From: a virus
Length of the DNA: 47,450 nucleotides
IMG/VR virus record: IMGVR_UViG_3300030329_002898
Coordinates: 1 to 47,450 of that record
Reading direction: 5' to 3' (one strand)
The notes under the pieces were generated by a model. It was not told where the DNA came from, made no database searches, and saw only the letters and a program-made list of their open reading frames with translations. Made by a program: the position numbers and the translations under genes. This document shows positions 27,497 through 44,994 of this stretch, one piece after another (positions within the stretch are counted from its first letter, which is position 1; each line of letters opens with the position of its first letter).

Positions 27497-28609
27497 ATGA
27501 AAAGGATATTTTTATTTCTAGTATTAACTCTAACTGTAAGCTCACAAGACTTTTATGTTTTTGCCGGTCAATCTAATATGTCAGGCCAAGGTAAATCAGA
27601 AGATCTATGTTTATCTGATTTAGATACGGATAGAATTTGGGGTTGGGATTGGGTACAAAATAAATTTGTGACTAATTTAAACCCTTTGGAAAATGATAAT
27701 GTATTTAGGGCAGAGTCATTACACGGTTACCCTTTTGACCGTACTGGTTTTTGGGGGCCAGAATTGGCAGCTTTAAGAGTTATTAGAGATAAAACACAAA
27801 GGCCGGTTTATTTCATAAAATATGGTTGGGGCGGATCTTCCTTGTTGCCTGATCATATGGGCTTAAATAACTGGCAAAATAATTTATACAATACTTTAAA
27901 GTCCGAAATTAACCTAACAGGTAGAACGCCAACAGCTTTTTTATGGATGCAGGGAGAAACTGAATCAATTACCACAGATAGAGCCAATCAGTATTATGAT
28001 CTACTTTCAGATTTTATAGATCGCGTAAAAAATGAAATTTGTTCAGGTTTATTTATAGCCGGTCAAGTATCTTTTAGATTTTCGGATGCTATTGGAACTC
28101 AAGAAGCCATAGAAGGTAATGAAATTGTTCAAGCAGCACAACTCCAATTGAATCAAGAGAATAAGCTTAAGCTTGTTGGAACTGACGATTTAATAAAATA
28201 TCGCGATGATTTAGGCCATTTTGACGCACGATCACTGCGTTTGTTTGGTGTAAAGATGGCTCTACAAGCTTTATATGGTCACACAACAAATAATTCTCAT
28301 GCTTACCCTGAAGTTATAGGTGACTATGATAATGACGGTTATACCGATGCTTTATGGTCTATGAGGTCTGGCACTGATAAGGTTTTTAAAATTTGGAAGA
28401 TGGATAAAAATTATCAAGTACAAGGACAATTCAATATTTATTGGAATGGATCTGTATTGAATAGAATAAATGAAAGTTACAAATTTATAAATTCATTAGA
28501 TGTTGATAATGATAGGGATTCAGATATATATCACACTGATGGAATAAATCACAATATATGGCGTTTGGATTGGCCGAACGTAACACACTCAAAATGGTTA
28601 AAGGAGTAA
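27497..28609 (+). CDS. SGNH / sialate-O-acetylesterase-like protein with signal peptide and calcium-binding repeats
   Basis: 370 residues. Residues 1-16 form a signal peptide (Met-Lys-Arg, a hydrophobic stretch, Ser-Ser-Gln). The esterase domain (about 18-262) shows Gly-Gln-Ser26-Asn-Met-Ser-Gly, a Gly-Trp-Gly-Gly-Ser block, Trp-Met-Gln-Gly-Glu at 150-154 and Asp238-Leu-Gly-His241, the catalytic Ser, Asp and His of the SASA/SGNH family. Residues 270-370 hold two FG-GAP/VCBS-like Asp-x-Asp-x-Asp loops (Gly-Asp-Tyr-Asp-Asn-Asp-Gly and Asp-Val-Asp-Asn-Asp-Arg-Asp). It would remove acetyl groups from surface glycan. A signal peptide is unusual for a tail protein, so secretion from the infected cell is possible. 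Confidence 0.85.
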   Translation: MKRIFLFLVLTLTVSSQDFYVFAGQSNMSGQGKSEDLCLSDLDTDRIWGWDWVQNKFVTNLNPLENDNVFRAESLHGYPFDRTGFWGPELAALRVIRDKTQRPVYFIKYGWGGSSLLPDHMGLNNWQNNLYNTLKSEINLTGRTPTAFLWMQGETESITTDRANQYYDLLSDFIDRVKNEICSGLFIAGQVSFRFSDAIGTQEAIEGNEIVQAAQLQLNQENKLKLVGTDDLIKYRDDLGHFDARSLRLFGVKMALQALYGHTTNNSHAYPEVIGDYDNDGYTDALWSMRSGTDKVFKIWKMDKNYQVQGQFNIYWNGSVLNRINESYKFINSLDVDNDRDSDIYHTDGINHNIWRLDWPNVTHSKWLKE

Positions 28610-28616
28610 ATTAAAA

Positions 28617-29588
28617 ATGGCTTTAAATCCCAATGCAAGCTATCCTACACAAACAACTACACCGGATGCAAATTATCCCTATGGCGGTGCTCAGAATGTA
28701 ACTACACCAGGCGATAACACAGGTACTCCGTGGAATGCAAATATTGTAAATGATATATTCGGATTTCAGCAAGCTTTATTGCAATCTGCTAACATAACAC
28801 CAACTAATACACCGGATACTGCCCAATCATCACAATATTTAGAAGCTTTGACTAAATATATAGGTCGTGCAGAATTTGAAAGCAGGACAATAACAGTTCC
28901 AGCCGGTGCAACATTTTCAGACATTCAAACTCTATGGGATGACCGTGGCACTCATATACCAAGGGGCGTAATTTTAACTTATGATTATGAAGCGGATACA
29001 TATGTTGGCGCTGCTAATGAAATTTTGACATGGAAAGGTTACGCTGGGGGTGGACTTGTTATTCATAAGGGGCCAGCACAGCCAGCACCTAAAGCGGTTA
29101 AATTTACGGGGCCAGGGGCTAAACCTTATGAAGAGTTTCCGCCTTATAGTAATGCAGATGCTGAAAGGTATTTAGTGCAAGTTACCGATAGTCAATTTGT
29201 TCTTTTTGGTGATATTGAATTTGAAATGACTGTATCTGGAGCAACGAATAAAAGTGCTGCTGTACTTGTTACTGAGTCAACAGTATCATTTAATGATTGC
29301 GTTGTATCAAATGCGACAACAACAGGTACACAAGTTTATGGTGTACAATCCCAGAATCGGGGAAACATGGTTCTATCTGATGTAGATATTACTTGCCCAA
29401 CTGGTTTAGCCGCCGATGTTTCAGTTTGTGTGGGGGCAACCCTTAAAGGCACATACACCGCAATTAATACAAGCGGCACGGCTGACTATGGTTATAGAGT
29501 AGTGGATTCAGTAGCATCATACACAGGCAATACTATCTCTGCTAATACAAGCCTAACCACTGTAGACCGTGGACAAATTTACACTTAG
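28617..29588 (+). CDS. Tail fibre/spike protein (323 aa)
   Basis: Residues 1-90 show the conserved phage-fibre attachment pattern (Tyr-Pro-Tyr-Gly-Gly-Ala-Gln-Asn-Val-Thr-Thr-Pro-Gly, Gly-Thr-Pro-Trp-Asn-Ala, Val-Asn-Asp-Ile-Phe-Gly-Phe-Gln-Gln-Ala-Leu). After a Pro/Gly-rich linker, residues ~185-323 read as short parallel-beta-helix rungs rich in Thr, Val and Asn. An AAGGAG site lies 11 bases upstream. It probably forms the receptor-binding fibre together with the two small proteins and the esterase upstream. Confidence 0.82.
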   Translation: MALNPNASYPTQTTTPDANYPYGGAQNVTTPGDNTGTPWNANIVNDIFGFQQALLQSANITPTNTPDTAQSSQYLEALTKYIGRAEFESRTITVPAGATFSDIQTLWDDRGTHIPRGVILTYDYEADTYVGAANEILTWKGYAGGGLVIHKGPAQPAPKAVKFTGPGAKPYEEFPPYSNADAERYLVQVTDSQFVLFGDIEFEMTVSGATNKSAAVLVTESTVSFNDCVVSNATTTGTQVYGVQSQNRGNMVLSDVDITCPTGLAADVSVCVGATLKGTYTAINTSGTADYGYRVVDSVASYTGNTISANTSLTTVDRGQIYT

Positions 29589-29594
29589 TTAGCT

Positions 29595-30053
29595 ATGGGT
29601 ATTTTGAGGTATCTAAGGCGTAGAATATCTAAAAGATACGCCCATCGATTTATACAAGATATTGATTATATCGAGATAGATCATCTTGTTTATAAATACA
29701 AAATGATACAAGATAGATCAATTCAAACAAAAGTAATAGGTTATAAAATTGTAACTGATTACTTTGTTTTATATAAAGATGGGCGTTTAGTTATCTTTGC
29801 TGGCTATGCTTGGGATGGCCCAAACGGCCCTACTTTAGATACCCCATCATTTATGCGATCTAGCTGCGCTCATGATGTTTTTTTTCAGATATTGAGAGAA
29901 TGTTTAATACCTGATTTTGATAGAGTACTTGTGTTTTATACTGCAAATAAAGAGCTTAAAAGAATATCCAAGATTGATGGAATGTTGTGGCCTTTGTATC
30001 ATATTGCTAAAATAGCTGTAGATTTATGTGGTAAGAAATACACAAGGAAATAA
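29595..30053 (+). CDS. DUF1353 family protein
   Basis: 152 residues with Gly-Tyr-Ala-Trp-Asp-Gly-Pro-Asn-Gly-Pro-Thr-Leu-Asp-Thr and Cys-Ala-His-Asp-Val-Phe-Phe-Gln, the hallmark segments of DUF1353. The family is common near phage fibre and lysis genes, and its biochemical role is not established. The conserved Trp-Asp and His-Asp residues would suit a metal or catalytic site, which is inference. The next gene is a holin-like protein. No clear endolysin is found nearby, so this gene is worth keeping in mind for cell-wall activity. Confidence 0.82.
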   Translation: MGILRYLRRRISKRYAHRFIQDIDYIEIDHLVYKYKMIQDRSIQTKVIGYKIVTDYFVLYKDGRLVIFAGYAWDGPNGPTLDTPSFMRSSCAHDVFFQILRECLIPDFDRVLVFYTANKELKRISKIDGMLWPLYHIAKIAVDLCGKKYTRK

Positions 30054-30058
30054 GAAAG

Positions 30059-30400
30059 ATGTTAGAGAAGATAGAGATAACCTATCTGATTATAGGGGGT
30101 CTTGTTAGTGTAATAATGTTTATATGGAAACAAGGGAAGTCTTGGGGTAAAAGCACAGCTAAGGATAGCGTAGACACACAGAAAATAGCAGAGATAGAAT
30201 CCGATACAGAAAAGCTTAGAGAGAAATTTGAAGAGCTTAAAGACACCGTAAAAGATTTATTGCATAAAGGCGAATTAACTGAGCAAACGCTAAAAGTATT
30301 ACAGGGGCAAATTGAAGTATTATTTAAACTTAACGAAAAGCATGGTGAAAAGATGGAGAAATTTTTTGATCAAATGTTAGAGTTAAGCAAGGAGAAATAA
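30059..30400 (+). CDS. Holin-like membrane-anchored coiled-coil protein
   Basis: 113 residues. One hydrophobic helix (about 8-24) near the N-terminus is followed by a long charged coiled coil (about 40-110). This is the plan of small phage holins or holin-associated proteins placed after tail fibre and DUF1353 genes. No second membrane helix is seen. Start ATG at 30059, with AAGAAAG just upstream. Function inferred by layout and place only. Confidence 0.7.
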   Translation: MLEKIEITYLIIGGLVSVIMFIWKQGKSWGKSTAKDSVDTQKIAEIESDTEKLREKFEELKDTVKDLLHKGELTEQTLKVLQGQIEVLFKLNEKHGEKMEKFFDQMLELSKEK

Positions 30401-30406
30401 AAATTT

Positions 30407-30826
30407 ATGTTGGTTATGCCTCAAACCTCGGACATCATGATTTATGATGATGAAAGAACTTGTCTAAAAACAATATCAGAGATGATAAAAAACCATTATT
30501 CATTTCATAGTATTAAAACTGAAGATAACATTTTTTCAATGAAGTTTGATCTGGCAATAAATAGACCTAAGCTTTTAATACTTGATTACAAGTATGAGGG
30601 TAATTTGAATCTTAATTATGTAATGCCTACACTCAAAAAATTTAAAGGGGTATGCATTATTTATAGCTGTTTATCTAAAGAGCATATACTTTCTGAAATT
30701 GGAGATCTACCTCATAATTTTTACTTTGTGCAAAAGGGCAATGTCGGAGGACTAAGGAATTTACTAGATAGATTTATTCCTGCTTGTCGCTCCAACACTA
30801 AAAAAGTTGATTGTTTAGTCAACTAA
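30407..30826 (+). CDS. Stand-alone response-regulator receiver-like domain
   Basis: 139 residues with the full receiver pattern: acidic pair Asp14-Asp15 after strand 1 (Ile-Met-Ile-Tyr-Asp-Asp-Glu), phospho-acceptor Asp60 at the end of strand 3 (Leu-Leu-Ile-Leu-Asp-Tyr), Ser87 after strand 4 (Ile-Ile-Tyr-Ser), and Lys110 after strand 5 (Phe-Val-Gln-Lys-Gly). Five beta-alpha repeats fit the length, and there is no output domain. In bacteria such single-domain regulators act by protein contact. It is the last gene of the late operon and its stop overlaps the convergent leftward gene by 12 bp. AAGGAG lies 12 bases before the ATG; a later ATG at 30437 would remove the first strand. Confidence 0.75.
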   Translation: MLVMPQTSDIMIYDDERTCLKTISEMIKNHYSFHSIKTEDNIFSMKFDLAINRPKLLILDYKYEGNLNLNYVMPTLKKFKGVCIIYSCLSKEHILSEIGDLPHNFYFVQKGNVGGLRNLLDRFIPACRSNTKKVDCLVN

Positions 30827-31627
30827 ATCAGATTTTACTTCTTCATTTTTAGGTTTAGGCTTTTCTATATCGAACCAATCCCAAGGTTTAGACATACCAT
30901 CCTTAAGGGATGTGTAAATATTTCTAAGGTTGACAACTTGAGCAGCATTAATAGCTTCTATATGGCAACCTATATTTTTTTCTATATGCTCTTTAGTTAC
31001 CTTAAATGATTCAAAGGCTGTAACTAGCTTTTTAATTCCTTCAGCGGATAAATCAGCGGTTGCATTTAAGGTTATTTGGCATTGTTTTTCAGCAGTTTCA
31101 ATTACATCACCAGGTATAACTCCCAAAATGCAAGATCGAAGTCTTCTAGCGCCTTGATTGGCAACTAACTCATAAATATCACGTGGATCTGTGAGTTTAT
31201 TTATTGTGCCTCGTGCCTTTCTCTCGTGCTTAACTTTAAATGTTTTGGTTTCCCTTACATTTTTCTCAAGATCCCAACAGTAAGCAATAACTGAACTTTC
31301 GCCGTTTTTTTGCTCAAGTTCTTTAATTCCGAAATCAAGATTGCCCCAATGTCTTGCAATTGACTCTGCAAGCCTTATAGATGGCCCCGTGACTTTTGTT
31401 CCTCCTTTTGGATAAGCATAAACGGCACTTTCAGCTAAAGAAATTCTGGTACATTCATTTATAATGTTATCAATTGCCTGAATTTCATTTCTAGGAAACT
31501 GTTTAGCCATTACTACCTGTGCTTGCACTTCTGCTATTTCATGAGCTGCGTTGCTTTCTGCTAAGGCTCCGTTATTTTGCCTTATTTCGCCTATTGGGTT
31601 TGTTACTTTTTGAACTTCATTACTCAT
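30815..31627 (-). CDS. Conserved phage protein, possible ssDNA annealing/recombination factor
   Basis: 270 residues. Conserved-looking cores are Tyr-Pro-Lys-Gly-Gly-Thr-Lys-Val-Thr-Gly-Pro-Ser-Ile-Arg-Leu-Ala-Glu, Cys-Trp-Asp-Leu-Glu and Val-Ala-Asn-Gln-Gly-Ala-Arg-Arg-Leu-Arg-Ser-Cys-Ile-Leu-Gly-Val-Ile-Pro. I recall this as a widespread phage family of uncertain function. The arrangement resembles single-strand annealing proteins, and the genome also has a RecE-like nuclease and an SSB-like protein, so a recombinase role is plausible. It is the last gene of a leftward operon and converges with the receiver-domain gene with overlapping ends. No clear terminator is seen between them. Confidence 0.75.
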   Translation of the reverse strand: MSNEVQKVTNPIGEIRQNNGALAESNAAHEIAEVQAQVVMAKQFPRNEIQAIDNIINECTRISLAESAVYAYPKGGTKVTGPSIRLAESIARHWGNLDFGIKELEQKNGESSVIAYCWDLEKNVRETKTFKVKHERKARGTINKLTDPRDIYELVANQGARRLRSCILGVIPGDVIETAEKQCQITLNATADLSAEGIKKLVTAFESFKVTKEHIEKNIGCHIEAINAAQVVNLRNIYTSLKDGMSKPWDWFDIEKPKPKNEEVKSDLVD

Positions 31628-31822
31628 TTACTTTCTTCCTTTTTTCCTACGTTTTTTTTTATCTTTCTGCGATTCTTTCTTTTTTACTACTGTTTTATTT
31701 GGTATTATTCCTAATGCCTTAATTTTTCCCCTTTTTTTGGAATCTTTAAATTTACATTCGTTATCAGTCCTGCCGCAATCACAGTGCGGGCAATCTATTC
31801 CGCATTTTGTGAAAATACTCAT
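31628..31822 (-). CDS. Small Cys-rich, Lys-rich protein (64 aa)
   Basis: 64 residues. Six Cys in Cys-Gly-Ile-Asp-Cys-Pro-His-Cys-Asp-Cys and a further Cys at about 23 suggest zinc binding. The last third is almost pure Lys/Arg (Lys-Lys-Lys-Arg-Arg-Lys-Lys-Gly-Arg-Lys), typical of nucleic-acid binding. The start overlaps the upstream stop (ATGA), and its stop directly abuts the next start. Function unknown. Confidence 0.65.
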   Translation of the reverse strand: MSIFTKCGIDCPHCDCGRTDNECKFKDSKKRGKIKALGIIPNKTVVKKKESQKDKKKRRKKGRK

Positions 31823-31995
31823 GATAATTTTACCAGGCTATTCATTAGCTTTGGATAGATTTTTTGTAATCTTTTTTTTGAAATAATCATATAAGGATTT
31901 TCGTCAGTATAAACTGTGCATATCCCTTTTTTTTCTTCTTTGACGCTTATGTTAAATTGCATAAGCTCTTGGTTTATGTTTTTAATTGATTTCAT
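31819..31995 (-). CDS. Small leftward hypothetical protein (58 aa)
   Basis: Read on the minus strand from ATG at 31995 to TGA at 31819-31821: 58 residues beginning Met-Lys-Ser-Ile-Lys-Asn-Ile-Asn-Gln-Glu-Leu and ending Met-Asn-Ser-Leu-Val-Lys-Leu-Ser. The stop overlaps the next start as ATGA, and the start follows the Cro-like gene by six bases, so it is a coupled member of the leftward operon. Not recognised. Confidence 0.6.
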   Translation of the reverse strand: MKSIKNINQELMQFNISVKEEKKGICTVYTDENPYMIISKKRLQKIYPKLMNSLVKLS

Positions 31996-32001
31996 TTCAA
32001 T

Positions 32002-32169
32002 TTACCTTTTTTTATTTATTGCCTCATATGTTTTTCTGTGTGCTGGAAAATTATCTGAGAGTAGATTATCTACTAATTGCTGTTGTGTGACTCCTATCTC
32101 TGCGGCAGCATTTTTAACTATAAATTTCCCCATATCAGAGACACGAACCATATTTTGCTTTCTTGCCAA
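32002..32169 (-). CDS. Cro-like small helix-turn-helix regulator (55 aa)
   Basis: On the minus strand a TTG start at 32169 has GGAG nine bases upstream; an ATG at 32151 is the alternative and lacks a good site. The product is 55 residues. The stretch Ala-Ala-Ala-Glu-Ile-Gly-Val-Thr-Gln-Gln-Gln-Leu-Val-Asp-Asn-Leu is a helix-turn-helix that lines up with lambda Cro (Ala-Lys-Asp-Leu-Gly-Val-Tyr-Gln-Ser). The Arg-Lys-Thr-Tyr-Glu-Ala-Ile-Asn that follows mirrors the Cro Arg-Lys-Ile-Phe-Leu-Thr-Ile-Asn. It is the first gene left of an array of GTATAC operators, one of which lies just before its own start, so autoregulation is likely. Confidence 0.72.
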   Translation of the reverse strand: MARKQNMVRVSDMGKFIVKNAAAEIGVTQQQLVDNLLSDNFPAHRKTYEAINKKR

Positions 32170-32204
32170 TTTGGTATACTCCTATTGTTTATTAAAGATA
32201 AAAT

Positions 32205-32234
32205 AATATAGCACTTCCAGTATACCATCGTCAA
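32205..32234 (-). promoter_or_regulatory. Leftward promoter with operator in its spacer
   Basis: On the minus strand TTGACG (plus-strand 32229-32234), an 18-base spacer and TATATT (32205-32210) form a sigma70-type promoter for the leftward operon. The second GTATAC operator (32220-32225) lies inside the spacer, so a bound regulator would block polymerase. Transcription would start near 32198. Confidence 0.7.
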
Positions 32235-32304
32235 TAAATTTATGCTTAAAAATGCAAAAATAATAGTATACCAAATAAACTTTAAACTTTTTTAATCTTT
32301 GCTA

Positions 32305-32334
32305 TTGCGTGGTATACCAATTGATGTATATAGT
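32305..32334 (+). promoter_or_regulatory. Rightward early promoter with operators
   Basis: TTGCGT (32305-32310), an 18-base spacer and TATAGT (32329-32334) face the first rightward gene at 32367. The fourth operator (32312-32317) is in the spacer and the fifth, weaker one (32333-32338) overlaps the -10 box. This mirrors the leftward promoter, so one regulator could control both directions. Confidence 0.65.
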
Positions 32335-32366
32335 ATATCAACAAAACGAAAAACGGAGTTAGAACG

Positions 32367-32573
32367 ATGACACAAGAAAATATTTTAATTAACCAAAGAA
32401 TAAAGACACAAAAAGCTTTAATCGCTGACCGCATAGAAATTATAAAAGATTTAGAGAATAAAATTGCTAACCCAAAATGTAAACGTCCAAAACAGTGGGC
32501 TGCCGCAATCGCTCAACATAAAATGTGCATTGCAACATCAAAGCAAATAATAAAAGACTTGCAAGCACTTTAA
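32367..32573 (+). CDS. First rightward early protein, helical (68 aa)
   Basis: 68 residues, highly basic and helical, with Lys-Thr-Gln-Lys-Ala-Leu-Ile-Ala-Asp-Arg-Ile-Glu-Ile-Ile-Lys and a second helix around Ala-Ala-Ala-Ile-Ala-Gln-His-Lys. GGAG stands eight bases before the ATG. It is the first gene under the rightward promoter and is followed by a strong hairpin terminator, so it alone would be made at full rate. It may be an early takeover or antitermination factor, but no family is recognised. Confidence 0.72.
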   Translation: MTQENILINQRIKTQKALIADRIEIIKDLENKIANPKCKRPKQWAAAIAQHKMCIATSKQIIKDLQAL

Positions 32574-32582
32574 CCCACTCTG

Positions 32583-32640
32583 GCCGCTCAGAATTAACTA
32601 ACACTAACCAAAGTTAATTATCAGGACTGGGCGGCTTTTT
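32583..32640 (+). terminator. Long double-stem hairpin terminator
   Basis: An outer stem GCCGCTCAG (32583-32591) with CTGGGCGGC (32627-32635), one G-U pair, is continued by a perfect inner stem AATTAACT (32592-32599) with AGTTAATT (32612-32619). TTTTT follows at 32636-32640. The outer GC stem directly before the T-run makes a good intrinsic terminator, and the inner stem makes it unusually long. Read-through, or a promoter further down, is needed for the genes after it. Confidence 0.75.
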
Positions 32641-32664
32641 AAATCATAGCAAAGGTATAGCGAG

Positions 32665-32829
32665 ATGTCACCAGAAGAAAAACTAAAAGAAGAAATAGAA
32701 AAGGCGATGAAAATTTTAAGCCAGATTACTTTGTCGTCTGATTATGGCTGCCAAGATCAAAGCAGCGGTTTTTATTTTCGAGACATAGCGTTTGAGGCCG
32801 AAAAAGTCCTTAAGGAGGCGCTAAAATGA
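32665..32829 (+). CDS. Small helical early protein (54 aa)
   Basis: ATG at 32665, stop TGA at 32827-32829, overlapping the next start. 54 residues, mostly charged helix (Glu-Glu-Lys-Leu-Lys-Glu-Glu-Ile-Glu-Lys-Ala-Met-Lys) with a central Tyr-Gly-Cys-Gln-Asp segment. First of a tight ATGA-coupled series of tiny genes. Not recognised. Confidence 0.6.
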   Translation: MSPEEKLKEEIEKAMKILSQITLSSDYGCQDQSSGFYFRDIAFEAEKVLKEALK

Positions 32830-32918
32830 AAAAAGATGAAATCTGGTTTTTTGGGCTGACAGTGGCCCTATTAAGCATGATCGCGTACATGATCATTATG
32901 CAGGGGACACAGCTATGA
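32826..32918 (+). CDS. 30-residue membrane peptide
   Basis: ATG at 32826 overlaps the previous stop as ATGA, and an AAGGAGG site stands at 32812-32818. The peptide has a charged N-terminus (Met-Lys-Lys-Asp-Glu) and one hydrophobic helix (Phe-Phe-Gly-Leu...Ile-Ile-Met). Strong translation signals argue that it is real. Perhaps a small membrane regulator; no family known to me. Confidence 0.55.
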   Translation: MKKDEIWFFGLTVALLSMIAYMIIMQGTQL

Positions 32919-33070
32919 CCCAAATAAGCAAAACTGGCCTAAAAAAATCACAGCTAGAAAAAGGCTTAAAAGAAGCTGAGACAAAAGCGGCTTATTGGAA
33001 AAAGAAAGCTTTAGCTTATAAGCAGGATTTAGAGATCGTACAGAATGCAAACCCATATGAGATGAGGTAA
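32915..33070 (+). CDS. Small basic helical protein (51 aa)
   Basis: Overlaps the previous stop as ATGA. 51 residues, mainly one long Lys/Ala/Glu-rich helix (Lys-Glu-Ala-Glu-Thr-Lys-Ala-Ala-Tyr-Trp-Lys-Lys-Lys). Ends in Asn-Pro-Tyr-Glu-Met-Arg. It may bind nucleic acid or pair with a neighbour as a coiled coil. Not recognised. Confidence 0.55.
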   Translation: MTQISKTGLKKSQLEKGLKEAETKAAYWKKKALAYKQDLEIVQNANPYEMR

Positions 33071-33072
33071 AA

Positions 33073-33357
33073 ATGAGCAAGACACACGGCGGCAAAGGCC
33101 AATACATGAATTTTAATATTAATAATTTTGTTAAAGTAAAGCTAACTGAACTTGGGATACATGAACTACAAAGACAGCACAATGAGTTATATAAACATTT
33201 TTCAAATATTGACATAGCACCATTCAAAATAAATAAAGATGAGGATGGTTATACTAAATTTCAGTTGCATGATTTAATTAGGTCATTGGGACATGTCCTG
33301 TACTTAACTGGGCCACTGCCTTTTGATATAAATATTAAAATTGAGGTCAAAGAATGA
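33073..33357 (+). CDS. Early hypothetical protein (94 aa)
   Basis: 94 residues, starting Ser-Lys-Thr-His-Gly-Gly-Lys-Gly, with Leu-Gly-Ile-His-Glu-Leu-Gln-Arg-Gln-His-Asn-Glu-Leu-Tyr-Lys and a middle Asp-Glu-Asp-Gly-Tyr-Thr-Lys-Phe-Gln. A GAGATGAGGTAAAA context gives a ribosome site. Its stop overlaps the next ATG. Phages often carry similar small early proteins of unknown role; no motif allows a call. Confidence 0.65.
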   Translation: MSKTHGGKGQYMNFNINNFVKVKLTELGIHELQRQHNELYKHFSNIDIAPFKINKDEDGYTKFQLHDLIRSLGHVLYLTGPLPFDINIKIEVKE

Positions 33358-33509
33358 GTGCAGGTAAAGGCTCAGGAGTAGCACAAGGCTACAGAACAAA
33401 GCAGTGGGAAAATACTAAGCTTTGGGAAAACCTGAAAAAGGGCAAGTCAGAGAAGGAGCTGAAAGCGGAACTGGCTAAAAGTGGAATTGAAATTTTAACA
33501 GGACAGTAA
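33354..33509 (+). CDS. Small basic protein (51 aa)
   Basis: ATGA overlap with the gene before. 51 residues, beginning Ser-Ala-Gly-Lys-Gly-Ser-Gly-Val-Ala and containing Lys-Gln-Trp-Glu-Asn-Thr-Lys-Leu-Trp-Glu-Asn-Leu. It ends with a Lys/Glu-rich helix. No family recognised. The Gly-rich, basic N-terminus resembles the start of the preceding gene product (Gly-Gly-Lys-Gly). Confidence 0.5.
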   Translation: MSAGKGSGVAQGYRTKQWENTKLWENLKKGKSEKELKAELAKSGIEILTGQ

Positions 33510-33513
33510 ATTT

Positions 33514-33672
33514 ATGTTTGTAGATGATAAAGACCGTGAGCGATTTTATAAAATCTTGGCATTTATTTTAGCTTTATTAATTATTCAAGGGGTTAATGAC
33601 CTTATAAGAGGATGCATTGTTATGGATAAGCTGGATAAGATCGAAGAACAACTAAAGGAGCAAGGCGAATGA
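33514..33672 (+). CDS. Small single-helix membrane protein (52 aa)
   Basis: ATG at 33514, TGA at 33670-33672. 52 residues: a charged start (Asp-Asp-Lys-Asp-Arg-Glu-Arg), a hydrophobic helix (about 13-26) and an amphipathic tail (Lys-Leu-Asp-Lys-Ile-Glu-Glu-Gln-Leu-Lys). The gene ends just before the consensus promoter at 33679. Probably a small inner-membrane protein of unknown function. Confidence 0.55.
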   Translation: MFVDDKDRERFYKILAFILALLIIQGVNDLIRGCIVMDKLDKIEEQLKEQGE

Positions 33673-33678
33673 GTGAGG

Positions 33679-33707
33679 TTGACAATAAGCGGAAAAGTTA
33701 GTATAGT
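33679..33707 (+). promoter_or_regulatory. Near-consensus sigma70 promoter for replication genes
   Basis: TTGACA (33679-33684, perfect consensus), a 17-base spacer and TATAGT (33702-33707) make the best-looking promoter in the window. Transcription would begin near 33714, right at the foot of a structured leader. It would drive the HTH_36 protein, sliding clamp, helicase-methyltransferase and primase-helicase genes. Confidence 0.8.
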
Positions 33708-33713
33708 GTAGCA

Positions 33714-33874
33714 TCTTTAAGCGGTGGCCCTGTTGGCCTAATTACCCAGCAGAGCGAGGTTTTCTTTCACTGTCCTCCGGCCACCAACGCTTAATCCTAA
33801 TCAGTGAAATAAAAGTGAAAGACAGAAGAAAATTCATAAAAAATATATCTGCCTTTCTCTATTTGGAGAAAAGA
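33714..33874 (+). promoter_or_regulatory. Structured leader RNA: three-way junction plus SD-masking hairpin
   Basis: P1 pairs 33717-33723 with 33888-94-type complement at 33788-33794 (TTAAGCG/CGCTTAA) and, across a CAA bulge, 33724-33729 with 33779-33784 (GTGGCC/GGCCAC). P2 is CTGTTGG (33730-33736) with CCAGCAG (33746-33752). P3 is GAGG (33756-33759) with CCTC (33774-33777), with a 14-base loop. The loop stretch TCTTTCACT (33763-33771) is complementary to AGTGAAAGA (33814-33822), and TTTCACTG (33765-33772) to CAGTGAAA (33802-33809). A further hairpin TTTCTC/GAGAAA (33854-33859 with 33866-33871) covers the GGAG ribosome site of the next gene. It matches no RNA family that I know and is probably a translational switch. 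All pairings were found by eye. Confidence 0.65.
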
Positions 33875-34483
33875 ATGTCATTCAAATTAATGGCTCAAGC
33901 GATGGACATAAAAACAGGTTCATCGACTACTAAATTAGTTCTGTTAAAGCTTTGTGATAATGCCAATGATCAAGGTATATGCTGGCCTTCACAAGATACT
34001 ATTGCAGAGCAATGTGAGATTTCTAAAAGAACGGTTGTATCTACAATTAAGAAGCTGGAAGAAATGGGTATTATTGCCATAGAAAAAAAGTGTAAAAACG
34101 GCAACAAATATCTGATAAATCTTAAAAGTGAAAAAATTGCACCTTTAGAAACAGAAGTGCAAAATCTGCACTCTAAAAGTGAAAATTCTGCACTTTTCAT
34201 AAGAACCTATAAAGAACCTACCAAGAAAAAATATATTAAAAAAGATTTGCCTGAAAGAGAAAAAGACTTTGAGCAATTAGTAAAAGAAACTTGGCAAGAT
34301 ATGGGAGGGGAATCATTCCTGCCAATACTAGAGGCACAAAAATTCTTTTTATACTGGTCTGAGTCAAACGGAAAAAAACTATTGTTTGAAAGGCAACAAA
34401 CTTTCGACATCCGAAAAAGATTCAAGAGATGGCAACTAAATAATTTTAACCAATCAAAGCCGCAAGGCAGAAACAACGCATAA
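33875..34483 (+). CDS. HTH_36-type replication-associated DNA-binding protein
   Basis: The ATG at 33875 has GGAG six bases upstream and gives 202 residues; a GTG at 33815 is in frame but lies inside the leader structure and lacks a site. The N-terminal 70 residues fit the HTH_36 pattern (Thr-Lys-Leu-Val-Leu-Leu-Lys-Leu-Cys-Asp-Asn-Ala-Asn-Asp, Cys-Trp-Pro-Ser-Gln-Asp-Thr-Ile-Ala, Ser-Lys-Arg-Thr-Val). The remainder is helical with Phe-Phe-Leu-Tyr-Trp-Ser-Glu-Ser-Asn-Gly-Lys. In phages such proteins lie before replication genes and act as replisome organisers or initiators. It is the first gene behind the consensus promoter. Confidence 0.8.
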   Translation: MSFKLMAQAMDIKTGSSTTKLVLLKLCDNANDQGICWPSQDTIAEQCEISKRTVVSTIKKLEEMGIIAIEKKCKNGNKYLINLKSEKIAPLETEVQNLHSKSENSALFIRTYKEPTKKKYIKKDLPEREKDFEQLVKETWQDMGGESFLPILEAQKFFLYWSESNGKKLLFERQQTFDIRKRFKRWQLNNFNQSKPQGRNNA

Positions 34484-34503
34484 AAAAGGAAAGGTAGCAC
34501 GAA

Positions 34504-35565
34504 ATGAAAGTAAACAGCAAACAACTATTAGCGGCACTCAAAAAGCTAAGTGGAGCTATCAATAATCCATCAGTCCCAGTACTGGCTAATGTCAGAATTA
34601 TAACAGGATTAGATCAAGTTAATTTAATTGGCACTAACCTAAATCAAACTATCAAGGTAATTTTGCCATGTGAAGTTAAGACTCAGATTGACACCACAAT
34701 CAATTTTAAGCGCCTCACGGCCATTTGTTCACAGTTGGCGGATGATTATATACAAATGTCAATTAAGGACGACACAGCGGCTTTAAAATGTGGCAAATCT
34801 AAATTTAAACTCGCTTGTATTAACTCCGATCAATGGCCGATTGATAATTTAGATGGCGACTATAAAGAGATAACTTTGGATTATAAGACATTCAGAGATC
34901 AAGTAAACCAAGTATTTTACTCAGCCTCAAAAGATGAATCAAGACCGGTTTTAAATGGTATTTTATTTGAGGTCAAAGAACGCGATTTTAATACAGTCGC
35001 TACTGATGGTAAAAGGCTGGCTATATCTTCAGTATATGGAATGCAGCAAGAAGATTTAAACCTATCCTTTATTTGCCCGGTGAATGTATTAATAGATATA
35101 ACTAGGCATGCATCAGACTACATAAACTTAAAGATTTATGATTCTAAATTATCGGTTAAGTCAGGCAATTATGAAGTGACAACAAAGTTAATTGAGGGTA
35201 ATTATCCAAATTATTCTCAGATTATTCCTGGAAAATTTACAGGTAAATTGCACATCAACAGAGTCGCGTTATTAGATGCCGTTCAACGTGTGGCATTAAT
35301 ATTAGACAATATAAACGAAGGTATAAAACTCGTATTTGCCGGTAATGAATTACACGTAACAGCTCAAACACATGATAGCGCGCAAGAGACTATTTTAATT
35401 GAGAGTGATACAAATGCGGAGTTTAGTTTCAATCCTGCATTTTTAGTAGATGTACTAAAGAACTTAGATTCAGATCATGTAATGCTAAATTACACTGACA
35501 GCATATCACCTACGCTAATCAGCGCATACAATCTAAAATATATTTTAATGCCAATGAGAGGGTAA
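34504..35565 (+). CDS. dnaN: DNA polymerase III beta sliding clamp (DnaN-like)
   Basis: 353 residues, full length for a bacterial beta clamp. Three repeated domains can be followed, with Ser-Val-Pro-Val-Leu-Ala-Asn-Val near residue 25, Ser-Arg-Pro-Val-Leu-Asn-Gly-Ile-Leu-Phe-Glu at about 152, Ala-Thr-Asp-Gly-Lys-Arg-Leu-Ala at about 168, Glu-Gly-Asn-Tyr-Pro-Asn-Tyr at about 233, and the closing Met-Pro-Met-Arg. The clamp is a dimeric ring that tethers polymerase and other proteins to DNA. No DNA polymerase is encoded here, so the clamp would serve a host enzyme or phage proteins. It lies three bases before a gene whose product ends in a clamp-binding motif. Confidence 0.93.
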   Translation: MKVNSKQLLAALKKLSGAINNPSVPVLANVRIITGLDQVNLIGTNLNQTIKVILPCEVKTQIDTTINFKRLTAICSQLADDYIQMSIKDDTAALKCGKSKFKLACINSDQWPIDNLDGDYKEITLDYKTFRDQVNQVFYSASKDESRPVLNGILFEVKERDFNTVATDGKRLAISSVYGMQQEDLNLSFICPVNVLIDITRHASDYINLKIYDSKLSVKSGNYEVTTKLIEGNYPNYSQIIPGKFTGKLHINRVALLDAVQRVALILDNINEGIKLVFAGNELHVTAQTHDSAQETILIESDTNAEFSFNPAFLVDVLKNLDSDHVMLNYTDSISPTLISAYNLKYILMPMRG

Positions 35566-35567
35566 TC

Positions 35568-37760
35568 ATGGATTATCAGGAATTTATAGAGTCGAAAGCA
35601 AATACATTTATTAACTCAGGTTTTGATATTGATGATCGTGATTTAAATGAAAATTTATTCGACTTTCAAAAATATACGGTAAAGATTGCGCTTAAAAAGG
35701 GTAGGTTTGCCATATTTGCTGATTGTGGTTTAGGTAAGACTATTCAACAGTTGGAATGGGCTAATCAAGTAAATAAATATACCAACAAGCCAGTTCTTGT
35801 ATTGGCCCCATTAGCTGTTGTTCAACAAACTATTAATGAAGGTCAGTCTTTTGGTATTGGTGTTCATCCACTAGGTTATGATAGCCCTATAGAAATATCT
35901 AACTATGATCAATTAGATAATATTGACTGTAGTAAATATTCTGGTGTTGTTTTAGATGAAAGTAGCATTCTAAAAGGAAAGGACTCTAAGACAAAAAATA
36001 AGTTATTTAAGTATTTTAAAGACACTCCATATAAATTATGCTGTACTGCTACACCATCTCCTAATGATCATACTGAATTAGGTAATCATGCGGAGTTTCT
36101 GGGAATTATGAAATACCTCGAAATGCTTGCTATGTACTTTGTTCATGATGGTGGAGAAACATCAAAATGGAGACTAAGGAAGCATGCTCAAGATGACTTC
36201 TGGAAGTTCGTATGTACATGGTCTATTTCTATAGATAACCCCAAAACATTAGGTTTCTGTGGTCAAAATTATCAGCTCCCAGAGATTAATTATATTGAGC
36301 ACATTATAGAAACAAATAAGGATGATGGATTATTATTTAGAGATGGCATAGTTTCAGCTACTGATCTTCATAAAGATCTGCGATTAACAATGGATTTAAG
36401 AGTATCTAAAGTTGCTGATATAGTAAATAACTCAGATGATCAGTGGATTATTTGGGGACTTCAAAATGCAGAGACTGATAAACTTAAAAAAGTAATTAAT
36501 AATTCCGTTAATGTGCAAGGATCAGATAAACCTGAAATAAAAGCTAAAAACTTAAATGGCTTCGCTGATAATGAATTTCAAAATCTGATTACCAAAACAA
36601 GCATCGCCAGTTTTGGTATGAATTACCAGAATTGTCATAATATGATATTTTGCTCTTATGATTTTAAATTTGAGGCATTTTACCAAGCTGTTAGGAGATG
36701 TTATAGATTTGGACAATCAAATAATGTTAATGTACATATTATAATCCCTGATACTCAATCTAATGTCAGGAAATCAATACTAGAAAAAGAGCAGAAGCAT
36801 AAAGAAATGATAAATCATATGTCTATGTATTCTGCTGATGCTGACTATTCAATAACTAAAAACCAAAAACCAATATCTAAAGAAATTAAAAAGGATGACT
36901 ACTGGATTATGAATGGCGACTGTGTACAAGAAATAAAAAATATTGAAGATGAAAGCGTTCATTTAACTGTGTTTTCTCCGCCATTTGCGGAATTATATGT
37001 TTATTCAGATAAATCAGAGGATATGGGTAACGTATCAAGTTATGATCAGTTTTGTGACCATTTTAAATATTTATTACCTGAATTAAATAGGATTATGAAA
37101 TCAGGTAGAATTGCAGCTATGCACTGTATGGATGTACCACTACAAAAAGGTAAAGATGGAGTTATTGGTCTTCGTGACTTCTCAGGCATGCTTGTTCAGA
37201 TGATGGCAGAAAATGGATTTATATATCATGCTAGAACAACAATATGGAAAAATCCAGTAACTGAAATGCAGAGGACTAAAGCACTTGGACTGCTGCATAA
37301 GCAGATTAAAAAAGACAGCTCCATGAGTCGTGTTGGAATTCCTGATTATATTTTATTCTTCAGAAAAGAAGGGGAAAATATAGAGCCAATTACTCATCAG
37401 GTTGATGATCCATCTAAGCCAGATTATTTGCCAGTAGATCTATGGCAGAAATATGCTAGTCCAGTTTGGTATGATATTGATTATTCAAGGACTCTTAATT
37501 ACAGATCAGGAAGGGATGATAATGACGAAAAGCATATATGCCCACTCCAATTAGATACAATTAATAGAATACTTCACCTATACTCAAATGAAGGTGATAC
37601 AGTTTTTACCCCATTTATGGGTATTGGATCTGAAGTATATGAAAGTATAAAGCAGAATAGGAAAGCTATCGGTATAGAGCTAAAACCTTCATATTTCAAT
37701 TTGGCATCAAATAATATTGAAACTGCTGTAAAAGAATCAAACCAACTAACATTATTCTAA
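35568..37760 (+). CDS. SNF2/DEAD-type helicase fused to beta-class DNA methyltransferase, with C-terminal clamp-binding motif
   Basis: 730 residues. The helicase part (about 25-425) has Walker A Gly54-Leu-Gly-Lys-Thr58, Asp130-Glu-Ser-Ser for motif II, Thr-Ala-Thr-Pro (160-163) for motif III, and Gln373-Ala-Val-Arg-Arg-Cys-Tyr-Arg-Phe-Gly-Gln383 for motif VI. The methyltransferase part (445-720) has motif IV Ser470-Pro-Pro-Phe and motif I Phe-Met-Gly-Ile-Gly (683-687). The IV-before-I order is beta class, which makes N6-methyladenine or N4-methylcytosine. The last five residues, Gln-Leu-Thr-Leu-Phe (726-730), match the beta-clamp-binding consensus. The gene follows the phage clamp by three bases. 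It could couple methylation to replication. No restriction subunit is seen. Confidence 0.9.
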   Translation: MDYQEFIESKANTFINSGFDIDDRDLNENLFDFQKYTVKIALKKGRFAIFADCGLGKTIQQLEWANQVNKYTNKPVLVLAPLAVVQQTINEGQSFGIGVHPLGYDSPIEISNYDQLDNIDCSKYSGVVLDESSILKGKDSKTKNKLFKYFKDTPYKLCCTATPSPNDHTELGNHAEFLGIMKYLEMLAMYFVHDGGETSKWRLRKHAQDDFWKFVCTWSISIDNPKTLGFCGQNYQLPEINYIEHIIETNKDDGLLFRDGIVSATDLHKDLRLTMDLRVSKVADIVNNSDDQWIIWGLQNAETDKLKKVINNSVNVQGSDKPEIKAKNLNGFADNEFQNLITKTSIASFGMNYQNCHNMIFCSYDFKFEAFYQAVRRCYRFGQSNNVNVHIIIPDTQSNVRKSILEKEQKHKEMINHMSMYSADADYSITKNQKPISKEIKKDDYWIMNGDCVQEIKNIEDESVHLTVFSPPFAELYVYSDKSEDMGNVSSYDQFCDHFKYLLPELNRIMKSGRIAAMHCMDVPLQKGKDGVIGLRDFSGMLVQMMAENGFIYHARTTIWKNPVTEMQRTKALGLLHKQIKKDSSMSRVGIPDYILFFRKEGENIEPITHQVDDPSKPDYLPVDLWQKYASPVWYDIDYSRTLNYRSGRDDNDEKHICPLQLDTINRILHLYSNEGDTVFTPFMGIGSEVYESIKQNRKAIGIELKPSYFNLASNNIETAVKESNQLTLF

Positions 37761-38024
37761 ATGCAATCCAAAAAACAGAGCTTTAAAGAGTCTGTTGTTA
37801 ATGTGGCCGTGGGTTATGCTGTCGCATTAATTAGCCAGTTGATTGTATTTCCTATTGTTGGAGTACAATCAACATTTACTCAAAATATAAAAATCAGCCT
37901 TTATTTTACAATTATTTCTTTAATTCGTAGCTACCTAATAAGGCGATATTTTAACAAAAGTGAAAGCCATGGATTATCAAAGTTTAGGGATAGATATAAG
38001 ATCAAGCGGTCAACACAAAACTAA
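37761..38024 (+). CDS. Small inner-membrane protein (conserved phage type, 87 aa)
   Basis: The ATG follows the previous stop directly. 87 residues with two hydrophobic helices (about 14-33 and 45-60) and a Ser-Tyr-Leu-Ile-Arg-Arg-Tyr-Phe-Asn motif followed by a basic tail. I recall this Arg-Ser-Tyr-x-Ile-Arg-Arg arrangement from small membrane proteins found in many phages near replication genes, of unknown function. The last 56 bases overlap the primase-helicase. Confidence 0.72.
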   Translation: MQSKKQSFKESVVNVAVGYAVALISQLIVFPIVGVQSTFTQNIKISLYFTIISLIRSYLIRRYFNKSESHGLSKFRDRYKIKRSTQN

Positions 38025-39720
38025 ATGCCCCAATTGCCCCAAATTAGGAAAAAGATCAACAGAAAGTTTAAGCGTTGATCCTTCAAGAAATATTTTTAAC
38101 TGTCATAAATGCGGATGGAATAACGGCCATGTTACTCAATTAAATAATAACTATATTCCACAGCCGCCTAAGCCAAAAAAACAAGGTGAGTATAGGCCGA
38201 GTGAATTAAGAGATCTTAAACCCGCTGAATTAGCTTTTTTTGAAAATAGGTCAATAAGCGAAGGAACTTTATTCAAGGCAGGGGTTAGAGGATGTACGCG
38301 CTGGATGCCACAAGTAAAAGGCGAATGTGATGTACTGGCTTTTCAGTTCATTAAATCAAATAAGAGAGTTAATACCAAGTACAGAAATGCCAATAAAGAT
38401 ATGTCCCAAGATGCCAACGCCGAAAAGTGTTTTTATAACTATGAGGCATTAGAAAGAAAACCAGTGCGTATTTACATCACTGAGGGAGAAATAGACGCAC
38501 TGACATTAATGGAAGTTAATTTTAAAGATGTTGTCAGCGTACCAGATGGAGCGCCAAACCCAACAGCTAACAATCTTGATAATAAGTTTTCATACTTTAC
38601 TGAAGAGGCTATGGCGCTATTTGATGAGATTCAAGAAATTGTACTTGTTACAGATAATGACGAGAATGGTCGATTTTTAGAATCAGAGCTTAGGCGGCGC
38701 TTAGGTATAGATAAATGTTTGTTTATTCAATATCCTGAAGGATGCAAAGATATAAACGATGTATTGGTTAAAGAAGGGCCGGAAGCTGTAGAAGATGTTT
38801 TGGAAAATGCAAAGCATTATCCTGTAGACGGTTTACATACATTCGCTGATTATAAGCCTCAGATAATTGATATGTTCAATGGTGTTCAAGAGAATTATTG
38901 GACTACTGGCTATCCTCATTTTGATAAGCATCTTAAAATCAAAACAGGTCAATTAAACATTGTAACTGGTACACCTGGCAGTGGTAAATCAGAGCTTATT
39001 GATGATGTAATGATAAATACTATCATGAAAGATGGTGCAAAATGGGCTGTATTCAGTCCTGAGAATTACCCGCCAAAGGTTTACTTTAGAAAGCTGGCAG
39101 AGAAATACGAGAATAAGAATTTTAATGAGTTCACAGAGGCAACGTTAAATAATTCAATAAATGAGCTTAGCAATAATATTCATCTAATTGTTGATAACGA
39201 TAAGGATGATGTGACTCTCGATTATTTATTTGAGAGAATAAGAACTCTTGTGTTTAGGCAGGGTATAAAAGGAGTAATAATAGACCCTTGGAATGAAATA
39301 AGCCACAATATAGGCTCACGTGAAGATCAGTATTTAGCTAAAGAGCTTCGAAAGATTAAGAGGTTTATCAGGAAATATGATTTATCAATGTGGGTTATAG
39401 CGCACCCACGTAACCCCTCACGTGATAAAGATGGCAATTACAATAAAATAACAGCTTATGACATTGCCGGTGGTTATACATGGAACGCCAAAGCAGACAA
39501 TATTTTTTCAGTTTGGAGAGATCGCCAGGATAAAAAAAAGCCTGTTGAGGTGGATATACTCAAGATAAAGTATAAGACCGATGGTGAACTAGGGACGTGT
39601 AAGTTTTGGTATCAATATTCAACCGGTAAGTTTCAGAGCTGCGGAAGTTCTTTAGATGATCCAACAGACGTAGAGGACAAGGGCGGAGCAACAGTTAATG
39701 GACAATGGAGCGAGATATGA
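37969..39720 (+). CDS. Primase-helicase (T7 gp4-like: zinc finger, TOPRIM, DnaB-type helicase)
   Basis: 583 residues from ATG 37969; a GTG at 37960 would add three residues. The zinc-binding primase head has C20/C23 and C45/C48. The TOPRIM domain carries Glu172-Gly-Glu174-Ile-Asp and Thr-Asp229-Asn-Asp-Glu-Asn-Gly. The helicase core has Walker A Gly334-Thr-Pro-Gly-Ser-Gly-Lys-Ser341 and a Walker B Gly-Val-Ile-Ile-Asp-Pro-Trp-Asn. It opens DNA and makes RNA primers at the phage fork. The start overlaps the membrane-protein gene by 56 bp, and the stop overlaps the next ATG. Confidence 0.93.
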   Translation: MDYQSLGIDIRSSGQHKTKCPNCPKLGKRSTESLSVDPSRNIFNCHKCGWNNGHVTQLNNNYIPQPPKPKKQGEYRPSELRDLKPAELAFFENRSISEGTLFKAGVRGCTRWMPQVKGECDVLAFQFIKSNKRVNTKYRNANKDMSQDANAEKCFYNYEALERKPVRIYITEGEIDALTLMEVNFKDVVSVPDGAPNPTANNLDNKFSYFTEEAMALFDEIQEIVLVTDNDENGRFLESELRRRLGIDKCLFIQYPEGCKDINDVLVKEGPEAVEDVLENAKHYPVDGLHTFADYKPQIIDMFNGVQENYWTTGYPHFDKHLKIKTGQLNIVTGTPGSGKSELIDDVMINTIMKDGAKWAVFSPENYPPKVYFRKLAEKYENKNFNEFTEATLNNSINELSNNIHLIVDNDKDDVTLDYLFERIRTLVFRQGIKGVIIDPWNEISHNIGSREDQYLAKELRKIKRFIRKYDLSMWVIAHPRNPSRDKDGNYNKITAYDIAGGYTWNAKADNIFSVWRDRQDKKKPVEVDILKIKYKTDGELGTCKFWYQYSTGKFQSCGSSLDDPTDVEDKGGATVNGQWSEI

Positions 39721-39890
39721 TTCTATATTGCGTATTAGTAACCACAAAGCAGAATAATCCTTTTGTCGAAGTAGTCACAGATAAAAAGCCAGTAGCGGAG
39801 CTGTACCAAAAAATTAACCTAGATAAAGGTTTATTTTCCGTAGTAGTAGAGAAAGAATTAAACAGATTGCCGGAGAACGTAAGAGGATGA
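39717..39890 (+). CDS. Small hypothetical protein (57 aa)
   Basis: ATGA overlap with the primase-helicase stop. 57 residues: Met-Ile-Leu-Tyr-Cys-Val-Leu-Val-Thr-Thr-Lys, then Asn-Pro-Phe-Val-Glu-Val-Val, a small beta-alpha-beta layout. Codons for an earlier in-frame ATG (39705) lie within the primase gene. Coupled to its neighbours at both ends (ATGAG at 39887). Function unknown. Confidence 0.6.
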   Translation: MILYCVLVTTKQNNPFVEVVTDKKPVAELYQKINLDKGLFSVVVEKELNRLPENVRG

Positions 39891-40276
39891 GTAAATTAAA
39901 GCACCCAATGCAGTTTCAAGATAGGACTTCTGAGGTTTGGCGTTTTGTTGAAAATGAGCTTGTATCATGGTTAATAGATCAATTGCCGAATAATATGAAT
40001 TCGTTGGCATTGGAATATTGTACAGGCAATTATGATGATGCCGATTATGACCAAATATTACAGTTGATAGGCTATAGCGTATCTGGCATACCGTACAAAA
40101 ATAAAGACTTGTACGATATTGCAAATAATTGTGATCAATTACATGCAGAACGCGATAGGTACAAAAATGCTTTGGAGGAGATAATGAAAGAGTTTTCTGA
40201 AGGTTATGATGTCGGTGAGACTGCAATTGAAATGTATTATATAGCAAAAGGGGCAGTGAAAAGTGAAACCAAGTGA
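39887..40276 (+). CDS. Hypothetical helical protein (129 aa)
   Basis: 129 residues, acidic and helical, with Glu-Val-Trp-Arg-Phe-Val-Glu-Asn-Glu-Leu-Val-Ser-Trp-Leu and a C-terminal heptad helix (Ala-Glu-Arg-Asp-Arg-Tyr-Lys-Asn-Ala-Leu-Glu-Glu-Ile). AGAGGATG marks its start. It sits between primase-helicase and a nuclease. Not recognised. Confidence 0.65.
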   Translation: MSKLKHPMQFQDRTSEVWRFVENELVSWLIDQLPNNMNSLALEYCTGNYDDADYDQILQLIGYSVSGIPYKNKDLYDIANNCDQLHAERDRYKNALEEIMKEFSEGYDVGETAIEMYYIAKGAVKSETK

Positions 40277-40347
40277 CGCGAAGATATTAAAATTTATGCA
40301 TCGCTGGCGGCCATTGGGAAAAGAGCAGAGAAAGAAGCTTTATTAGG
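40264..40347 (+). CDS. Possible 27-residue basic peptide
   Basis: GTG at 40264 with AAAGGGG nine bases upstream, stop TAG at 40345-40347. 27 residues, strongly basic (His-Arg-Trp-Arg-Pro-Leu-Gly-Lys-Glu-Gln-Arg-Lys-Lys). It overlaps the previous gene end by 13 bp and fills the gap before the nuclease. It is too short to be sure; it could be a leader for the next gene. Confidence 0.35.
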
Positions 40348-40366
40348 AAATAGGGAGAAAGAAGAA

Positions 40367-40660
40367 GTGAAAACAGCAGCAAGAGTAGACGCAAATCAAA
40401 AAGAGATAGTAGAATACGCTAGATCAAAAGGCTTTTCAGTTCTAATTATATCTCAGTTAAAGAATTGCTGTGACATAATGATAGCGAAAAATGGCTATAC
40501 TATCGCATGCGAGATTAAAGACCCGAATAAGCCACCAAGCCAAAGGAAGCTAACCGAAGGCGAGCAGAAGTTTAAGGATAGTTGGGAAGGCGCTTATCGT
40601 ATTGTATATACAACTGGTGATATTGATTGTATTGATATGGCAATACAGAATTTAATATAA
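40367..40660 (+). CDS. VRR-NUC / PD-(D/E)XK-type small nuclease
   Basis: GTG start at 40367 behind AGGGAGAAAGAAGAA; 97 residues. The layout is Val-Asp-Ala-Asn-Gln-Lys-Glu-Ile-Val-Glu, then Asp36 in Cys-Cys-Asp-Ile-Met-Ile-Ala and Glu49-Ile-Lys51 (the D...ExK active site), and Lys-Leu-Thr-Glu-Gly-Glu-Gln. Small nucleases of this family cut branched DNA such as Holliday junctions or repair intermediates. It closes the first replication block ahead of a terminator. Confidence 0.82.
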   Translation: MKTAARVDANQKEIVEYARSKGFSVLIISQLKNCCDIMIAKNGYTIACEIKDPNKPPSQRKLTEGEQKFKDSWEGAYRIVYTTGDIDCIDMAIQNLI

Positions 40661-40704
40661 GGTTCTAATTATATTTATTGTTTAGGTAAGTTATATAAAT
40701 TTTA

Positions 40705-40735
40705 AGGCTGAAGTGTAAAAACTTTGGCTTTTTTT
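40705..40735 (+). terminator. Intrinsic terminator after nuclease gene
   Basis: AGGCTGAAGT (40705-40714) pairs with ACTTTGGCTT (40721-40730) over ten positions with three G-U pairs and a six-base loop; the T-run extends to 40735. The 150-bp gap around it also holds a GTTTAA/TTAAAC inverted repeat and an AT-rich stretch that could contain a promoter for the next gene, but no good -35/-10 pair is clear. Confidence 0.7.
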
Positions 40736-40812
40736 GTGAATTATGGTTTAACTTTGATTAAACTATAGTTATTATAAAGCATAACAAGCAAGGATACTAA
40801 CGGGGTAAAATA

Positions 40813-41676: not shown

Positions 41677-41816
41677 ATAAAAAACACATAGTTGTATCTG
41701 AAGAGACAAAGCAGCGTTTTGAAGATATGAAGGATGAAAAAGGTATGACTCAAGACGGGCTGATACGTTATTGGCTGCGGAAAGAAGAAAGTAGTAGTCA
41801 GGAGTTTCATAAATGA
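41673..41816 (+). CDS. Ribbon-helix-helix small regulator (47 aa)
   Basis: ATG at 41673 with a good AAAGGAG site. 47 residues with Ile-Val-Val-Ser-Glu-Glu-Thr-Lys-Gln-Arg-Phe-Glu-Asp-Met-Lys and Thr-Gln-Asp-Gly-Leu-Ile-Arg-Tyr-Trp-Leu, the beta-strand, helix, helix plan of Arc-like repressors. Its start overlaps the stop of the PAPS-like gene and its stop overlaps the zinc-ribbon gene. It may regulate middle genes or bind the operator pair at 42291-42322. Confidence 0.68.
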   Translation: MNKKHIVVSEETKQRFEDMKDEKGMTQDGLIRYWLRKEESSSQEFHK

Positions 41817-43842: not shown

Positions 43843-43843
43843 G

Positions 43844-44110: not shown

Positions 44111-44111
44111 A

Positions 44112-44958: not shown

Positions 44959-44971
44959 TATAGTGATAAGG

Positions 44972-44994
44972 CTGTTTACGAAGATCTTAAACAG
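44972..44994. promoter_or_regulatory. Inverted repeat CTGTTTA/TAAACAG
   Basis: CTGTTTA (44972-44978) and TAAACAG (44988-44994) form a perfect 7-bp inverted repeat with a nine-base centre, just downstream of a TATAGT box at 44959-44964. No T-run follows, so it is more likely an operator or mRNA hairpin than a terminator. Confidence 0.4.

Follow-up and report, generated by a model that had tools for sequence, protein, structure and literature searches.

What does a structured RNA leader, transcribed from a promoter of its own, do in front of the replication genes of a tailed phage? The question is raised by IMGVR_UViG_3300030329_002898, a single virus record of 47,450 bases, the whole of which was analysed here and is referred to as the window. 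An earlier note on this DNA had read the leader as a translational switch or small RNA. An answer depends on where transcription starts, how the transcript is predicted to fold, which of its repeats are shared with the replication origin, and whether anything comparable is found in related phages.

The phage and its replication operon

The window contains tailed-phage packaging, sheath, and baseplate genes. The nearest relatives of its terminase are those of Shewanella phage SppYZU01 (64%) and Acinetobacter phage Scuro (58%), whose replication genes carry different annotations from those of the window. The leader sits directly 5' of a replication operon that encodes an O-like initiator, a sliding clamp, a helicase/methyltransferase protein, and a primase/helicase. 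The initiator is an HTH_36 protein of 202 aa (33875-34483, + strand) that matches the PHROG annotation replication initiation O-like and the PF13730 domain (E 7e-18). The next gene of the operon (34504-35565, + strand) encodes, by annotation match, the sliding clamp or DNA polymerase processivity factor. It is followed at 35568-37760 by a single reading frame matching both helicase and DNA methyltransferase families, relatives of which are found at 40-69% identity in 80 virus loci.

Two other features of the early region can be described here. At its far end, 45124-45558 encodes a second initiator or a DnaD-like helicase loader (PHROG 186, 4707) and, given this gene, the phage may have two loader/initiator genes. 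A divergent regulatory region at 32150-32340 carries inverted TATAC/GTATA repeats (32169-32189 with 32256-32276), which are probably repressor operators between the leftward and rightward early genes.

The promoter and the three-way junction

Where does transcription of the replication operon begin? A sigma-70 type promoter, TTGACA-17-TATAGT, is present on the + strand at 33679-33707, with TTGACA at 33679-33684 and TATAGT at 33702-33707. It is the sole 11-of-12 sigma-70 site in 28500-47450 and the best in the right-hand 19 kb; the perfect -35, near-perfect -10, and 17-bp spacing claimed for it earlier are all confirmed. The predicted transcription start lies at about 33714, which gives the initiator a leader of about 160 nt. 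A reading frame of ten codons (MSEVDNKRKS, 33669-33701) shares bases with the upstream stop codon and with the -35 box. In relatives another gene stands immediately before the initiator, and the frame may be what is left of it.

The first part of the transcript is predicted to fold into a three-way junction (33717-33795, + strand), in which the stem P1 encloses the hairpins P2 and P3. P1 has 13 bp (6+7) and a CAA bulge on its 3' strand, P2 has 7 bp and a 9-nt loop, and P3 has 4 bp and a 14-nt loop, exactly as the junction had been drawn. The minimum free energy of the core (33714-33798) is -29.9 kcal/mol (z -3.8), a stability equalled by one in 1000 dinucleotide shuffles. The leader as a whole (191 nt) is less striking, with a z of -1.55 and 17 of 200 shuffles folding equally well. 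In a coarse scan of the + strand of the whole window, the leader fold ranks sixth by z (-4.85). Two + strand folds inside open reading frames, at 12652-12741 and 40072-40161 (z about -5.6), beat the leader against shuffles and are unexplained. Searches of Rfam at gathering and at permissive thresholds gave nothing credible, in line with the earlier note, whose author knew of no RNA family laid out in this way. The leader can also be ruled out as a transcription terminator; it has no T-run, as had been pointed out, and the + strand scan of the leader gave no terminator-like site.

By analogy with the put RNAs of phage HK022, a structured 5' RNA might load onto RNA polymerase and let it transcribe past terminators of the replication operon. 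The leader and HK022 putRNA are both structured RNAs of about 70-80 nt that lie near a promoter and upstream of early genes (PMC9378689). The putL site of HK022, about 70 nt in length, comes immediately after its promoter (PMC9378689), and the structure of about 80 nt described here begins only a few bases from the predicted start of transcription. A terminator-like hairpin is found downstream at 40704-40731. However, HK022 put consists of two consecutive, separate stem-loops with no closing stem (PMC9378689), whereas the leader is a closed three-way junction. This difference, drawn from the description of put, makes a put-like element highly improbable.

Origin iterons and half-iterons in the leader

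The initiator gene contains a probable replication origin, marked by iterons in the manner of lambda-type origins. Three iterons of the type AAGTGNAAAAWYTGCACTT (AAGTGAAAATTCTGCACTT) are located at 34126-34195 on the + strand: AAGTGAAAAAATTGCAC at 34126, AAGTGCAAAATCTGCAC at 34155, and AAGTGAAAATTCTGCAC at 34177. Matches to the iteron pattern number five against 0.38 expected, and none of 100 shuffles equals this count. The same iterons are found in the initiator genes of relatives, where this arrangement is widespread. In 57 of the 67 distinct initiator genes compared (66 relatives and the window's own), 7-mers recur in clusters inside the gene, and the five genes that were viewed in detail have TAGTGAAAATnTGCACC-type iterons spaced 21-24 bp apart. 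Because iterons cluster both in the window's initiator gene and in the genes of its relatives, AGTGAAA is taken as the putative recognition half-site of this family of O-like initiators, and this assignment is established independently of the leader.

The same half-site is found three times in the leader. Of the 19 copies of the motif AGTGMAA in the window, three are in the origin and three in the leader, where 0.063 would be expected and where none of 4000 leader shuffles gave as many. A cluster of three anywhere was found in just one of 100 whole-window shuffles. The leader half-iterons are located from about +50 to +107 relative to the likely transcription start. One is inverted and lies in the P3 loop (TTTTCTTTCACTGT, 33760-33773, + strand), which has AGTGAAA on the - strand at 33765-33771. 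The other two, copy 1 (CAGTGAAA, 33802-33809) and copy 2 (AAGTGAAAG, 33813-33821), are direct and 11 bp apart on the + strand, about one helical turn. The link between leader and origin extends beyond the half-site at copy 2, where TAAAAGTGAAA is found exactly at 33810 (33810-33820); its other exact occurrences, at 34123 and 34174, are in two of the origin iterons, and the window has no further copy of it. Far from the origin, AGTGAAA half-sites form a third cluster (40255-40268 and 40366-40372), which includes the tandem AGTGAAAAGTGAAA.

The tandem AGTGAAA copies had been put forward as the pairing partners of an RNA switch; they are better described as half-sites of the origin iterons that belong to the initiator encoded downstream. 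Since the repeats match the putative origin sites of the initiator, a feedback control point is likelier than a new RNA switch. The parts of the switch or small-RNA proposal that stand are the strong promoter, the real junction, the masked ribosome site, and the HTH_36 replication gene downstream; the part that falls is the AGTGAAA copies, which are not specific to a switch.

Predicted pairing of the P3 loop and access to the ribosome site

Can the P3 loop pair with the downstream copies? Both pairings proposed earlier are possible, with 8 bp at copy 1 (33802-33809, -9.6 kcal/mol) and a 9-bp complement overlying copy 2 (33813-33821, -11.8 kcal/mol). They are only mildly unusual because shuffles of the purine-rich stretch downstream often pair alike: at least 8 bp were found in 24% of shuffles, at least 9 bp in 6%, and two runs of at least 8 bp in 1.8%. 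Moreover, an inverted half-iteron makes RNA complementarity to a direct one automatic. The 7-bp core of the pairing between loop and copy needs no RNA function, and the pairing is therefore weak evidence for a switch. Two further pairings were considered and rejected. The longest complement of the P2 loop, a candidate second antisense element, is just 4 bp, and direct pairing of the P3 loop to the ribosome site is non-specific, with the leader's own SD ranking 33rd of 115 SD-like sites.

A hairpin masking the ribosome binding site (GGAG) of the HTH_36 gene is predicted at 33854-33871 on the + strand, as had been noted, and is weak (-6.0 kcal/mol). Its competitor is an alternative helix, GAAAGACAG/CUGCCUUUC (33817-33857, + strand; pair probabilities 0.27-0.61), in which CUGCCUUUC, a possible partner of copy 2, shares bases with the 5' arm of the masking hairpin. 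This arrangement could act as a translational switch in cis. When the P3 loop is unpaired, copy 2 would hold CUGCCUUUC and the ribosome site would be open; when the loop takes copy 2, CUGCCUUUC would be freed and the hairpin would close. The two helices are mutually exclusive, and with copy 2 blocked the SD is predicted to become about 5-fold less accessible (0.04 against 0.23). By contrast, a drop this large is seen in 20% of shuffled leaders, and together with equally strong loop pairing in 0.7%, and the motif was spotted ahead of this shuffle test. In addition, the SD is predicted to be mostly closed already in the free state (0.23), no ligand or trigger is evident, and no homologue of the leader was found in which covariation might be sought. 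The modelled evidence for a switch between copy 2 and CUGCCUUUC is suggestive, not convincing, and control in cis by this route is improbable.

Comparison with C4 and P4 CI RNA

The closest known RNA layout, not named in the earlier note, is that of C4 (P1/P7) and the CI RNA of the satellite phage P4. C4 of P1 is 77 nt in length, with a P1 stem enclosing P2 and P3 and an antisense element in the P3 loop; its annotated targets are 3 and 32 nt downstream, and the antirepressor operon lies behind them. RNase P cleaves C4, whose b' loop covers ribosome sites in part (PMC5320573); P4 CI RNA pairs with seqA and seqC and stops the expression of replication genes (PMC4825925). The leader resembles both RNAs in its long P1 enclosing P2 and P3, its length of about 80 nt, its possible antisense element in the loop of the second hairpin, its candidate target only a few bases further along the transcript, and its location ahead of replication or antirepressor genes.

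Is the leader a member of this family? The Rfam C4 covariance model (RF01695) scores 68.8 bits on the P1 control and 74.9 bits on P4 CI RNA, and finds no match in the window up to E 10. Unlike in C4, J3/1 is a single base in the predicted fold, which leaves no a' element, and there is no a1/b1 target (RF03163) upstream. The copies end at 33821 and the SD is at 33865, so the targets do not cover the ribosome site. Membership of the C4 family thus fails; whether the leader works in a C4-like manner is a separate matter.

By analogy with C4 and CI, the 80-nt junction might be cut from the leader and act in trans, its P3 loop binding both downstream copies on new transcripts and either shutting the ribosome site or stopping transcription. 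The replication genes would be kept silent in this way, as a form of immunity, which presumes that the phage is temperate. The topology is as in C4 of P1 and CI of P4: the junction has 79 nt and the first target begins 6 nt past it. The strength of the loop pairing at the two copies, and the predicted loss of SD accessibility when copy 2 is blocked, would also fit. Against this stand the silent C4 model and the missing target family, the single-base J3/1 at the position of the a' site, and targets that lie off the ribosome site, while the complementarity itself is accounted for by the half-iterons. An antisense RNA of this type is unlikely here, while deserving some weight.

The leader in related phages

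Has the leader been conserved in related phages? The upstream gene ends no more than 78 nt before the initiator gene in 70 of the 71 distinct relatives, and most of these pairs abut or overlap. None has a promoter scoring above 9 of 12 upstream of the initiator, and half-sites are almost never found upstream of the initiator gene in relatives. Blastn searches of phages and plasmids with the leader gave short matches alone, none of them across the fold, and in 50 related virus records no homologue was found beyond matches of 14-18 bases. Searches with patterns combining stems and sequence returned no homologue; one pattern match was a chance hit in unrelated high-GC sequence, and a looser pattern returned noise. 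A covariance model built from the leader matched none of 80 initiator-gene loci. When the single-sequence model was run on 369 bacterial genomes, it gave two matches at E 0.003 per genome, as expected by chance. Judging from these sequence comparisons, the leader appears to be confined to this phage or its close relatives.

It might then be asked whether the segment has any regulatory role, or is a stable 5' hairpin or a locally acquired stretch of DNA. The absence of a homologue in any search, in a region apparently unique to this phage, and the short spacing ahead of the initiator gene in nearly all relatives speak for such a stretch. However, the fold beats shuffles (z -3.8), the best promoter in the right-hand part of the window lies immediately ahead of it, and the leader carries three half-iterons. 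The lack of any role is quite improbable.

A proposed model of initiator feedback

Feedback by the initiator, through half-iterons in a dedicated promoter and structured leader, is the best reading of this locus, and we would put its chances a little below even. The promoter and the leader of about 160 nt would serve the gene of the O-like initiator together with the replication operon that follows. Transcription from just past 33707 would yield the initiator, which would first fill the iterons in its own gene, at the origin, and then the half-iterons of the leader. We infer from the shared sites that the protein binds at both places; on the leader half-iterons, it would block or slow transcription and so autoregulate its own synthesis, coupling the level of the initiator to origin firing. 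The RNA fold may also have a role, in that the three-way junction and the weak ribosome-site hairpin would set message stability and basal translation. The complementarity between the P3 loop and the copies would be mainly a by-product of inverted DNA sites.

The model has parallels in known replicons. An O-like HTH initiator with clustered iterons inside its own gene is found in lambda-type origins; the window differs in having further half-iterons in a distinct leader that has a promoter to itself, and a comparable leader is absent from 70 of 71 relatives. Autoregulated Rep promoters are well known from iteron plasmids, including those of RepE of F, pi of R6K, and RepA of pSC101. Half-iterons, one of them inverted, lie near the initiator's promoter in these plasmids, and the leader is alike in this respect. 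In contrast to the plasmid promoters, the leader sites are downstream of the promoter and off the -35 and -10 boxes, with an inverted pair about 31 bp apart, and the initiator belongs to another family.

Several points count against feedback. The half-sites do not lie over the -35 and -10 boxes, as the promoter ends at 33707 and the first leader site is at 33763; with no overlap between them, there is no classical operator. The leader sites also lack the second half of the iteron (TGCACTT), and relatives have hardly any half-sites ahead of the gene. Feedback leaves the stable three-way junction unexplained, as well as the 1-2 bp of complementarity per copy by which the loop exceeds the 7-bp half-site. 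A further possibility, which we regard as distinctly doubtful, is that an RNA element with no sequence relation to C4 and CI has come upon their design of a three-way junction with an antisense loop, targets downstream, and a replication operon, its loop serving also as an inverted half-iteron. The same seven bases would then be both a DNA site and an RNA pairing element that times phage replication.

If feedback by the initiator is correct, the phage would have added a layer of initiator autoregulation, as known from iteron plasmids, to a replication module of the lambda type. If the leader acts as an RNA instead, it would represent an immunity RNA that resembles C4 but lies outside the known family. 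In both cases, inverted iterons in a transcribed leader create complementarity in the RNA, which can be misread as a switch.
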